Source: Thermospira aquatica (GTDB lineage: Bacteria; Spirochaetota; Brevinematia; Brevinematales; Thermospiraceae). Taken from it: 64,000 nucleotides of DNA. The stretch's first letter is position 1; the number at the start of each line of letters is the position of its first letter. Shown one piece after another: positions 19,473-57,955 of this stretch. Made by a program: the position numbers and the translations under genes. The notes under the pieces were generated by a model, which had not been told where the DNA came from, searched no databases, and saw only the letters and a program-made list of their open reading frames with translations. The stretch spans positions 1,736,001 through 1,800,000 of the forward strand of contig NZ_CP073355.1 of the NCBI RefSeq assembly GCF_023525255.1, given 5' to 3'.

Positions 19473-19501
19473 TTGACTTTTTGTTTTTTTTTCTGTATAT
19501 T
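19473..19501 (+). promoter_or_regulatory. Sigma-70 promoter for clpP
   Basis: TTGACT, 17-bp spacer, TATATT, about 30 bp before the clpP ATG. No CIRCE or other heat-shock operator is seen next to it. Confidence 0.75.
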
Positions 19502-48141: not shown

Positions 48142-49305
48142 ATGCGTTTTCAAAAAGGTATTATTATAGGTGTAATAGTTCTGAGCATGAGTGGGTGTAA
48201 CTTTTTTGAATGGTTAACACCTCCGATGAGTGGCATAAGTGCAGAGGAACTCATCTATCGGGGGGAGCAGTATTTTGAAAAGCAGGATTATACAAGTGCA
48301 GAAGAGAGTTTTTACCAGGCGATGCTAATAGATCCCAAATCAAGTAAGGCTAGACTGGGGTATGCACGAGCGCTTCTCTGGCAGGTGATTTATCCAGTGG
48401 CCAATATCGTGGCAGAAGAGGCTCATAAAAATGGGGATAATATCTATCAGGGGCTTCTTGCCTCCCTTAACAAGAATGAGTTTAAAGAAGCTCTTTTTGG
48501 AGGAGAGGTTCCTCTTTATCAGAAGATTATCGACGCTTTAGAGGGACCTAACGGTATCATTGGAAATCAGGGAGATGGAGTGATAACGGATGACAAGCTG
48601 GAACCCAATGTTATTTTATTGGTGGCCTATTTCAGTCTGATTTCTTTAAATCTTCTGGATTCCAATGGGGATAGGCAATTTCTTACTCCTCCGGATTATC
48701 TTCGTCTGCAAGGAAACGAGGTCACGTTTTCTCTTGATATCGATCGGATAGTAAGTAATGTGGTGGCTTCCACCGAGATTGATACAAGCTATACGGCGGA
48801 TGATCTTATTAACACCCTGAAGGGATCTCATGATGCCTTGGAGGAGAGTTTGTCTCTTCTTCGGTTTTTGTATCTGAATATTGTCTATGTTGATGGGCTT
48901 CTCGGTTGTGTGATTCGACCATCCGCGTTTCTGAAACGTGTGTCCGCATCCTCTTCGGCTTATTCCAATCAGTATGATGAGATACGAGATGCGCTCACGA
49001 ATCCATCGGCTTCTACATCTTATACCAATTCTTTGCAGATTTTGTACATTTTGCGGTATGCTCCTACGAATGTAGGGAGAGTTTTAAATGATCTTCACCA
49101 CGTTCTCGTGGGAAGTTACGCTTATCAGAATCTTGGTGATTTTACTCCTAGTGTGTGGGGGAGTCATTCGGGAGGACTGAAGGCTTTTGGGGAGACTCTT
49201 TCGGGAACTTTGACAGAGGATGATGTAAGTAATGTGATTACCCAGATTACGAATGAGTATACCCCTGAGGAGATTTCAAATATTATAGCGGGTTTGCGAT
49301 TATAA
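48142..49305 (+). CDS. TPR lipoprotein of unknown function
   Basis: A 387-residue protein with a lipobox (IVLSMSGCN, Cys at residue 19). A TPR pair follows (GEQYFEKQDYTSAEESFYQA, KSSKARLGYARALLW). The remainder is an unassigned helical domain. It resembles spirochaetal lipoproteins that occur upstream of barrel proteins of the UPF0164 or PorV sort, and such a gene follows here at 10 bp. GAGGAGGG precedes the ATG. It may help to assemble or partner the barrel protein. Confidence 0.7.
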   Translation: MRFQKGIIIGVIVLSMSGCNFFEWLTPPMSGISAEELIYRGEQYFEKQDYTSAEESFYQAMLIDPKSSKARLGYARALLWQVIYPVANIVAEEAHKNGDNIYQGLLASLNKNEFKEALFGGEVPLYQKIIDALEGPNGIIGNQGDGVITDDKLEPNVILLVAYFSLISLNLLDSNGDRQFLTPPDYLRLQGNEVTFSLDIDRIVSNVVASTEIDTSYTADDLINTLKGSHDALEESLSLLRFLYLNIVYVDGLLGCVIRPSAFLKRVSASSSAYSNQYDEIRDALTNPSASTSYTNSLQILYILRYAPTNVGRVLNDLHHVLVGSYAYQNLGDFTPSVWGSHSGGLKAFGETLSGTLTEDDVSNVITQITNEYTPEEISNIIAGLRL

Positions 49306-49315
49306 GGAGCACAAG

Positions 49316-50835
49316 ATGAAGCGATATGTTTTTTTTTTCTTTTGTTTGTTATAGTTACACCTGGGTTTGGGGAGGGTATACCTTCCTCTTCTACCGCGTT
49401 CAAAGGCAATGTTACACTCTTTGACTATAGCTCTCCTTGGGCTGGACTCAATAATCCTGCTCTGATGACGGAGTATGGAGGATATCCGAATCCGTGGGTG
49501 TTTCGGACGTCTAGTACAAATCATCCTCAGTGGAAGGTGGGGAGGTTTTATCTTTTTTCCTCGTCGACAGCACTGGGTGTAAATACATCTTTTTATCAAC
49601 TTCTTGAGGCATATCTCTACTTTTTGGCGTATGATTTGGATCCTTCAACTGCTTCTACCCTAAAAAATTGGCTTGATCCTATCGTTCCCTTTACAGGGGG
49701 GGCTTTTTCTACCGAAATGCTTGCTCACCCTACCAATGATTTTGAATACCTTCAAAAAGCGATGAATCTGGTGCTCTCGAATAGTTCAGCGGGGTTTTAT
49801 TTTCGGGAAAGTTTTGGACTTTTTTCTCTTTTTCTTCCACTTGGAAATACAGGAAATGAAGTAGGGGTGCAGCCTGTTGTGGATCTTGAAAGCTATGGGA
49901 GTTTTACATCAGAGGAAAGTACTTTTTTTGTGTTCCGTGATCCGGAGGTTTCCTTTCTTCTTAAAACGGGGAGTGTTTTTTCGCTAGGACTTGGGCGATA
50001 TGATTTGCCACTTATTGGCAATGTGATGGTTGGGGCAAGTGTAGGGGTTTATCCTTTTATGACGCGTATACGGTTCCAGAGTATTGAGGAAATGTACGAC
50101 TATGGAGAAGCAGTTTCCAGCAATCAAAATGCTGCTCTTCAGTATGAAAATGTGAGGGTAGGCTGGGGAGCTGGTTTTGATGTTGGAGCCATAAAAAGAA
50201 TAGACGAACAGTGGAGTATTGGCTTCAAGGCAGAAAATCTTCTTTCTCCTATTTTATGGAGATACAAAACAGAAAAGGGAGAGGAAAAATATGACTTTGA
50301 TTGGATTCTGCCAAATATCGTAGCAGGAGTGCGTTATACTTATCCGATGGACAAACCTCTGAAGTTTTTTGTAAATGAGCCCTCGTTGTATATGGAGGTA
50401 GAGGATCTTCTCTATACGAAACCACTTGCGCTTCTTTCTAAGGTAAGGATGGGGGCTGATGTAAAGCTTTTGATGGATATACTTCAGGTAGGGGTGGGAC
50501 TCAATCAAGGATACCCCACGGTAGGGGGAAAGGTGAATTTAACTCTCTGTTGGTTAAGGGATATGCCAGGTATGTCAGATTTTGTTTCGATTCTTTTGTG
50601 GCCTATAACGATGGGAAATCTGACAGCCTTTGTGACGTATTATGGGAAAGAATTGGGGCACTATCCCGGGCACAAGGACGCTCTGGGGTATGTGTTTGGA
50701 CTTGAGTACTATCTTGAGTTTGGCGTTAATGGTCCTAGTCGCCAGATCCCTAAAGTCTCTTCTCCTACGGAAAAACAGACAGAGAACACCTCTTTGGTGG
50801 ATCCCGTCTTTCTTGAGGATGCCCAGGAGAGATAA
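49316..50835 (+). pseudogene. Outer-membrane barrel protein, start out of frame across a T10 tract
   Basis: AAGGAGCACAAG leads to ATG 49316, which opens a signal peptide (MKRYVFFF) and then meets T10 at 49329-49338; that frame stops at 49354. The other frame continues the signal peptide perfectly (LLFVIVTPGFGEG) and runs open for nearly 500 codons to 50835. One extra T, or two fewer, would give one intact protein of about 505 residues. The body looks like a UPF0164/FadL/PorV-like barrel: SPWAGLNNPALMTEYGG, GAGFDVGAIKRIDEQWSIGF, RMGADVKLLMDILQVGVGL. No other in-frame start with a ribosome site exists. It is either a phase-variable gene in its OFF state or a homopolymer sequencing error. Confidence 0.8.
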
Positions 50836-51337: not shown

Positions 51338-51392
51338 AGGTACCTCCTTATTACATTGTAGTGGAGAGCTGAAAATCTGTCAAGTCATCGAA

Positions 51393-51453
51393 TTGCTTCA
51401 TAATAAAAGTACTCGAAAAGGGAACGCTATTGCAAAATAAAAAAGTACTCCAA
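51393..51453 (+). repeat. Left end of the IS: two direct transposase-site-like repeats
   Basis: TTGC at 51393 and TTGC at 51430, each followed by A/T-rich sequence and AAAAGTACTC, 37 bp apart. Confidence 0.8.
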
Positions 51454-51509
51454 ATCTGTGTATAAAATAATCCAGTTCAAAGAACTGGAGGTAAAAGGTG
51501 GAGTTAGCG

Positions 51510-52731
51510 ATGTTTGAAAGGAGACCTATTTACAGGGAAACGGCGAAAGAGTATCAAAAAGCCAGCAAAAAGGAAAAAATGGAGATACTGGATTATTTTG
51601 TGAGGATAACAGGTTTAAAAAACCGAAACTATGCCGCCAGGCTCTTGAGGCAGCACGGAAAAACCATATATGTAGGCAAAAAAAATTACCTTAAAGCCGA
51701 TATAGCCAAAAAGGGCAAAAGACCTGGCAGAAAGAAAAAATTCGGCGAAGAAGAACTAAAACTTCTAAAAAAGGTCTGGGAAATTGAAAACTACATGTGT
51801 GGCAAACGTTTAAAGCCAATTTTAAATGAAGTTTTAGATAATCTCTTAGCAAACGGACATCTCCAGGGTTTTCAACAGGCTATAGAAAACTTGCGCCATA
51901 TAAGTGCCTCAAGTATTGACCGACTTTTGAAACATGAGCGTAAAAAGCTTGAGATAAAAGGACGAAAAGGTACAAAGCCTGGAACGCTATTAAAGCAACA
52001 AATAGCTATACGCACGTGGGCAGAGTGGGATGAAAATTGCCCTGGTTTTATGGAGATTGATCTGGTAGCCCATGAGGGAGGAAATAGCCGGGGAGACTTT
52101 GCTCAAACATTAAATATGGTGGATGTTTGGAGCGGTTGGACAGAGCTTGTGGCAATCAAAAACAAAGCTTCAAAATGGGTAAGAGAAGCCATAGAAAAGT
52201 CAAAGGAAGACTTCCTTTGAGTTACGGGGAATTGATTCTGATACCGCGTTGAATTTATTAATCATCCTCTACGCGATTGGTGTGAGAAGCACCAGATAAA
52301 ATTTACAAGGGGAGAAGCTCCCGTTCCAATGATAACTGCTACGTTGAGCAGAAAACTATTCCATAGTCCGCCAGAATGTTGGATACTTCCGCTACGATAC
52401 CGAGGAAGAAGTCTACTACTTGAACCGACTCTATGCGTATCTCAGGCTTTATGCCAACTTTTTTCAACCGGTTATGAAAATGACAGAGAAAAAGAGAATC
52501 GGAAGCAAGGTGCAAAAGAAGCATGATGATATTAAAACTCCCTACCAACGGCTTTTAGAAAGCTCTTATGTAAGTGAGGCACAAAAGGAACGCCTAACAA
52601 GGCTTTATAAGGCTCTCGATTTGTTTCACCTAAGACAAAAAATTACGGCTTGCCAGAGAAAACTTTTCAGCCTTCAAAAGAAAAAGAATGTAAAAAACAA
52701 AAATTTGGAGGAAACTGTATGGAATTTTTGA
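51510..52731 (+). pseudogene. DDE integrase-type transposase, multiply frameshifted
   Basis: The first 237 codons from ATG 51510 are intact: an N-terminal helix-turn-helix region (ITGLKNRNYAARLLRQHGKT) and the first catalytic Asp in MEIDLVAHEGG, followed by TLNMVDVWSGWTE. The frame then breaks near 52210-52220 and again several times up to about 52370. Reading across the breaks recovers FELRGIDSDT (second Asp), EFINHPLRDWCEKHQIKFTR, NDNCYVEQK (the Glu), then IVRQNVGYFRYDTEEEVYYL and an open C-terminus to 52731. These motifs fit the ISNCY/IS481-like integrase transposases. At least four indels mean that it is inactive. Confidence 0.85.
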
Positions 52732-52788
52732 GTACTTTTTTTTATGAGGCAATGATTCGAATTTCGAGTACTTTTTTATTTGACGCAA
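52729..52788 (-). repeat. Right end of the IS: two inverted transposase-site-like repeats
   Basis: GAGTACTTTT...GCAA occurs twice, with GCAA at 52749-52752 and 52785-52788 (36 bp apart), the mirror image of the left end. It overlaps the last 3 bp of the transposase frame. Confidence 0.8.
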
Positions 52789-52827
52789 CGGGTTTTTGGT
52801 TCATTTTGCAACATAGGAGGAAAAATT

Positions 52828-56715: not shown

Positions 56716-57955
56716 ATGATTTCTTTTCTTGCTTTGGGATTTGTTTTTTTTTATGATGATGGTTCGCAAAGTGGGAAGTTTTTGGTTGGAACTCTGGCAG
56801 ATTATGGGTATTGGTGCCCTTGTGGTCCTTGTTACAAGACAGATTTCACTTAGAAATGCTTTTTTGGCTATTAATTGGGAGGTTATGCTGTTTCTTTTCA
56901 CGATGTTTATTATCGGCGCAGCAATGGAAGAGAGTGGTTATCTCTCCCACCTCACCTATGAGATATTTAAAAAAGCAAAGTCTACCGATGGGCTTATTCT
57001 TCGTATTTTGTTTGTTATGGGGTTAGGGTCAGAGTTTTTGATGAACGATACTTTGGCTATCATTGGAACACCGGTGGTGCTTCATCTTGCCAAAAAGCAT
57101 CGTCTTAAACCTTCTTTTCTTCTTCTTACGTTAGCGTTTGCCGTGACGATCGGAAGTGTGATGAGTCCTTTAGGAAATCCACAGAATTTTCTTATCGCGA
57201 GTGAAGGTCATATCTCTTATGCGGTCTTAAGATTTCTGGAATACCTGGCTTTGCCTACCCTGTTGAATCTTGTGGTGGCGTATGGCATACTTCGTTTGAT
57301 GTATCGGGATCAGTTTCATCGGGAAGATCCCCTCGTTCATTCTCAAGAACCTGTGCATGACAGGCAGCTCGCTCGACTTTCGCAGTGGTCTCTGGGGGTT
57401 CTCTTGGGAGGAGTAGCTATCAAGGTGGTTTTATCTTTATTGCCGGGAGGGTATGAGATTCCGCTTGTTGGCATTACTATGGTGGCGAGTCTTCCTCCTC
57501 TTCTGTTTAGTCGGAGGAGGAAAAAACTGCTTCGTCGTTTAGATTGGCATACGCTTGTTTTTTTTATGGCAATGTTTGTTTTGATGCGGAGTGTGTGGAA
57601 TACAGGGGTTTTTCAAACATGGATGAGTGTTTTGCCTGTATCGGCTCTTTCTCCTTTGATGATTGGAGGGGTAAGTGTTTTGGGGAGTCAGATTCTTTCG
57701 AATGTTCCTCTTGTGGCATTGTATCTTCCTCTTCTTGTATCGGCGGGAGGGGGAGTCAGAGAGATGATGATACTGGCGGCAGGCAGTACCATTGCGGGAA
57801 ACCTCACGGTGCTTGGGGCAGCAAGTAATGTGATTATTCTGCAAAATGCTGAAAAACGAGTGGGAGAGACGGTTTCTTTCTGGGAGTTTTTGAGGTCTGG
57901 GGTTCCGTTGACTCTTTTGAATGTGCTGGTATATGCCATATTTTTGAAGGGGTAA
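56716..57955 (+). pseudogene. ArsB/NhaD/SLC13-type ion transporter, start out of frame across a T9 tract
   Basis: AAAGAGG precedes ATG 56716, which reads MISFLALGFVFF and then leaves the frame at T9 (56744-56752); that frame continues as YDDGSQSGK and soon stops. The other frame carries the rest: MMMVRKVGSFW, a second helix ELWQIMGIGALVVLV, then INWEVMLFLFTMFIIGAAME, MNDTLAIIGTPVVL, SPLGNPQNFL and, in the second half, SQILSNVPLVALYLPLL and GNLTVLGAASNVII. These repeated hairpin motifs mark the ion-transporter superfamily (anion, arsenite or Na+/H+). With T8 the two parts would make one protein of about 412 residues. ATG 56753 is an in-frame alternative but has no ribosome site. Confidence 0.8.

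Follow-up and report, generated by a model that had tools for sequence, protein, structure and literature searches.

The porin gene and its divided leader

The window analysed here comprises 64,000 bases and corresponds to bases 1736001-1800000 of a single contig of 2,515,453 bases. An open reading frame of 497 amino acids, running on the forward strand from TTG 49342 to 50835, is predicted to encode the body of a FadL/TodX-fold outer-membrane barrel, as judged from the ORF list, its homologues and a structure model; we refer to it as the porin. Upstream of it lies a gene (48142-49305, forward strand) for a TPR protein with a lipoprotein-like start, the conserved partner of the barrel gene. 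By eye, counterparts of the TPR gene stand upstream of the barrel in G001, G003 and G006 and, in part, in G002. In the Ch60 genome (L191, approximately 1600-1700) the similarity of the TPR gene to its counterparts ends abruptly, as if the gene had been truncated or rearranged.

A Shine-Dalgarno-like AGGAG (49305-49309, forward strand), read from the sequence, precedes an ATG at 49316-49318. The frame beginning there is 12 codons long (49316-49354, forward strand) and ends at TAG 49352-49354; its product, MKRYVFFFFCLL, has the character of the n-region and the start of the h-region of a signal peptide. This frame meets that of the barrel at a tract of ten Ts (T10; 49329-49338, forward strand), which is followed by C at 49339. 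The body frame, again as read from the sequence, opens after TAA 49303-49305, and no ATG or GTG occurs in it between that stop and the tract. A shift of -1 is needed to move from the frame of the ATG into that of the body, and a -1 reading over T10 gives a leader of 21 residues, the same length as in both congeners. The original prediction had put this ATG and a barrel body in different frames, with the break at ten Ts inside the signal peptide, and on both points it was correct; it had also offered a sequencing error in the homopolymer as the other reading.

The porin body was matched in 12 of the 41 genomes searched, its own included. A single-protein search of genome contigs gave no match, while the alignment-based genome search led to both congeners, G002 (JABLXN01, Ch60) and G001 (JAOADA01, SKW221), with body identities of 71% and 68%, respectively, and placed the nearest relatives in the order Brevinematales. 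The structure model, built from six sequences, has a mean pLDDT of 60.7 and a pTM of 0.57; Foldseek ranked TodX and FadL highest (E 2.7e-06 and weaker), and VIA-align 2 aligned it to FadL over 296 residues (Z 19.3, rmsd 4.1), the Z values to FadL/TodX transporters ranging from 17 to 19. The porin is thus predicted, from a model of moderate confidence with a clear FadL fold, to be a FadL-type outer-membrane barrel, which supports the earlier assignment. No family, PF03349 (FadL/TodX) included, was reached in a Pfam/NCBIfam search of the body: the only Pfam match, PF13729 (TraF_2, E 0.12), fell below the cut-off, and a distant homologue (L194) gave PF03349 at E 0.036, also below the cut-off. Counted from TTG 49342, FadL aligns from roughly residue 11 onwards, the position expected for the N-terminus of the mature protein; the cleavage site would lie immediately before it, and a signal peptide is therefore required.

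The gene is single-copy, with one protein match in its own genome. A paralogue sharing the switch was considered and rejected, the nucleotide search having returned the gene itself and a 41-base match in a downstream terminator-like repeat.

Congeners, selection and codon usage

In both congeners the homologous leader is read in a single frame from the counterpart of ATG 49316 (MRHFWLLFLFLLGVSGLFAEG and MRYVWIGILLWVVGGSAFAEG) and reaches Glu-Gly after 21 residues, so that the break is real relative to the relatives; and since a -1 reading restores the conserved 21-residue leader, it amounts to a one-step difference in length. The T tract is absent from the leader in both (0/2), the homologues at order level having been compared as proteins, so that tract absence rests on these two congeners. 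T10 as a conserved contingency site was rejected on account of this absence.

For the porin body, pairwise dN against the congeners is 0.225 and 0.250, compared with 0.183 for the congeners against each other; pairwise dN/dS is 0.07-0.12, with dS near saturation. The corresponding dN values for the upstream TPR gene are 0.240, 0.248 and 0.126 (234 codons of the G002 gene were available). By these sequence comparisons the porin body is under purifying selection and is not decaying. By the same dN comparison its own branch is no longer in the broken porin than in the intact TPR neighbour; the break, if real, is recent or tolerated.

TTT accounts for 84% of the Phe codons in the long ORFs of the window, and usage-weighted codon draws for YVFFFLLF contained a run of at least ten Ts in 38% of cases. 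As Phe codon usage alone yields such runs this often, T10 is unsurprising for this leader, and the tract is a by-product of its TTT Phe codons. Across the coding sequences of the window, A/T runs of at least eight number 9 against 17.1 in synonymous shuffles, those of at least nine 2 against 6.3, and those of at least ten 0 against 2.0, T10 itself lying outside the counted ORF; the last expectation corresponds to about 82 such runs in genes per genome. The deficit at eight and above points to selection against these runs, and a genic T10 is therefore rare here, whatever its cause. Shorter coding runs, of six or more, are in excess (150 versus 117 in the shuffles).

Long A/T runs elsewhere in the genome

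The genome contains 116 distinct runs of A or T of at least nine, 99 of length 9 and 17 longer; for runs of G or C of eight or more the count is 25 windows of eight. An automatic test, which sought runs that separate a start with a Shine-Dalgarno sequence from a long body in another frame and used a crude codon score that can miss breaks, returned nine candidates, two of which stand after reading: the porin T10 and a T9 at 56744. Five of the others (L026, L143, L149, L150, L153) proved to be in frame, and for two (L043, L050) a better start exists downstream of the tract. A T9 in a leader at L163 was likewise rejected as a third break, being in frame with the ATG of both orthologues. A second test, with the same capacity of the crude codon score to miss breaks, found no interior frame change and read 21 runs in frame; removal of L043 and L147, where the run is upstream of a better start, and addition of the leaders L028, L135 and L163 brings the other intragenic runs of at least nine that are in frame to 22.

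The second break resembles that of the porin. ATG 56716 is out of frame with the body of a CitMHS-type transporter (PF03600, E 8.7e-53) extending to 57955, and the T9 tract lies at 56744-56752 on the forward strand. From this ATG the frame reads MISFLALGFVFF and departs from that of the transporter body, while the congener leaders are in one frame and lack a long tract (MISFVALAFVFVMMMVRK and MISFVALGFVFVMMMVRR). The step needed is +1, opposite to the -1 of the porin. The transporter gene could instead start at ATGs just after the T9. The two breaks are 7.4 kb apart, and this closeness, given the small number of intragenic runs, is a mild hint of a local problem with accuracy.

The accuracy of shorter homopolymers could be gauged from repeats. 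One insertion sequence with 45 copies contains a T8, and of the 43 copies that could be read 41 have T8, one has T7 and one has T9; the assembly is probably not generally wrong at homopolymers of length 8. The coding A6/T6 runs of the insertion sequences include some indels, which may be decay, and give no clear error signal. A coding A10 elsewhere in the genome is in frame and matched by relatives.

Several further observations concern these repeats and runs. The copy of an insertion-sequence family in the window (about 51380-52790) is broken; some 45 long copies and 86 matching stretches occur in the genome (L178-L189, L199-L231), many with a broken transposase, the longest open frame ranging from 89 to 451 codons. 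The coding A10 (L065 1501-1510; G000:C1:1929254-1929263), the one in-frame coding A/T run of at least ten found, belongs to a 289-codon gene of no known family. Seven of the nine genomes with the gene, from two families, have exactly A10; of the other two, one has A9 and one lacks the run. The codon phase of the run differs between the families (L175, L176, L177, L237-L239). In the seven A10 genomes a slip into either of the other frames meets a stop after 0-7 codons, just short of two hydrophobic C-terminal segments. This A10 is a candidate for programmed slippage that would yield membrane-bound and soluble forms, or may simply encode a conserved Lys-Lys-Lys. Runs of at least nine A or T also occupy the spacers of sigma-70-like promoters (TTG...16-18...TATAAT-like) in 24 of 116 cases compared with 37 of 4000 random positions, a control that was not matched for A/T composition; examples are L048, L049, L064, L116, L125, L138 and window position 19484. 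Gain or loss of bases in such a run could change the spacing of the promoter. At L048, L055 and L147, promoter-like sites with an A/T-run spacer are preceded, at a distance of a few bases, by insertion-sequence-like ends (GAGTACTTTT...GCAATTCG).

Origin of the frame break

We surmise that the break is an unprogrammed one-base difference, whether a miscount or a recent slippage mutation, and assign this reading a probability of about 0.6; the weights given here to all explanations are judgements and were not computed. The TTT-coded leader of the FadL-fold porin gene makes a slippery T tract, and the assembled tract is one step off the length at which leader and barrel would share a frame. Between the two sources of the step we infer that a consensus miscount at the homopolymer, the simplest, has a little less than an even chance, and a real, recent and unprogrammed replication-slippage mutation is rather unlikely. 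Two breaks among 116 runs of at least nine, in opposite directions and close together, suit a local accuracy problem. Against an unprogrammed difference, shorter tracts look accurate (the T8 of the insertion sequence), as does the in-frame coding A10; moreover, each of the two breaks falls at the 5′ end of a gene for a membrane protein, a preference that random error would not have. If the base was miscounted, the porin will be missed or mis-started in any annotation of the genome; if the tract is real, it shows how the codons chosen for a hydrophobic leader could give rise to a contingency locus, even where long coding A/T runs are few in the genome.

A start at TTG 49342, with no break at all and the upstream ATG unused or serving only to couple translation, is highly improbable. 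This TTG opens the body frame, and the stop of the short upstream frame, at 49354, is close enough to allow re-initiation; but only T and C, and no Shine-Dalgarno sequence, precede the TTG, the resulting MFVIVTPGFGEG lacks a charged n-region, each orthologue starts from the counterpart of ATG 49316, and the alignment to FadL from about residue 11, right behind the expected cleavage site, calls for a signal peptide. Slipped-strand phase variation, as originally proposed, found no support apart from the tract and we consider it improbable. High-rate gain and loss in the tract would switch the porin on and off, the sequenced culture being mostly off. The porin is a surface protein whose homopolymer is so placed that one step of T10 length would switch the frame, coding A/T runs of this length are otherwise rare (none counted, plus T10, against the 2.0 expected in the window), and a second membrane-protein gene nearby has a like break. 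Yet retention in related species, which supports rather than strictly defines phase variation, was seen in 0 of 2 congeners, the gene is single-copy, conserved and accompanied by its TPR partner, and the codon usage of the leader suffices to make the tract. In the part of a review consulted (PMC11868660), phase variation demands high-frequency, reversible switching, and the term is cautioned against unless reversion has been demonstrated. We regard a counting error or fresh slippage at one base as more probable than a switch that evolved to turn the gene on and off.

Recoding of a real T10 is also unlikely, though slightly less so than phase variation: the polymerase would add a U to some transcripts at the run, or the ribosome would shift by -1, and some full-length porin would always be made. 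Programmed -1 ribosomal frameshifting follows a slippery-heptamer rule, and the heptamers U UUU UUU and U UUU UUC are present in the right phase of the ATG frame. A step of exactly -1 is required, this would give a product with the 21-residue leader that is conserved, and the porin body, at the low dN/dS given above, is not decaying. No stimulatory structure was found at close spacing 3′ of the tract; the fold of the downstream RNA does not surpass that of shuffled sequences (z -0.02 and -0.74), and the sole notable hairpin is some 30 bases downstream. Nor is the arrangement conserved in the congeners. According to the portion of PMC5574713 available to us, transcriptional insertions in E. coli and Buchnera sit in A/T runs and become more frequent as the runs lengthen, but that portion reports no frame restored by slippage; the part of PMC3017870 seen describes Blochmannia genes that are kept with A/T-tract frameshifts and treated as potentially functional. 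Slippage in transcription or translation could likewise leave the porin gene partly on. That the porin and the citrate-type transporter, neighbours in this Brevinematales spirochaete, are newly arisen T-tract contingency genes with graded output through polymerase or ribosome slippage is very doubtful; if true, it would represent a soft switch born purely of Phe codon usage in hydrophobic leaders, its "off" length being partly on.

The predicted fold of the porin body is that of the FadL/TodX outer-membrane transporters, from which it differs in showing about 10% identity and no Pfam/NCBIfam family match. Poly-G tracts of Treponema pallidum (tpr promoters and the TP0127 ORF), as described in the part of PMC3373638 seen, likewise concern spirochaete envelope-protein genes in which homopolymer length could decide expression or frame. 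The porin tract, in contrast, is T and not G, is known at one length from the assembly alone, has relatives without the tract and belongs to a host that is no known pathogen. With the tolerated A/T-tract frameshifts of Blochmannia and Buchnera, to the extent covered by the same part of PMC3017870, it shares a single indel in an A/T run of at least nine within an otherwise open, constrained gene; those hosts, however, are AT-extreme endosymbionts with more than 100 coding poly-A tracts, whereas the genome of the porin has a G+C content of about 43% and few such tracts. Compared with the homopolymer errors of long-read assemblies in the parts of PMC12007338 and PMC8011154 consulted, length-8 tracts look accurate here, but the porin likewise presents a one-base break at a homopolymer in a single-contig assembly.
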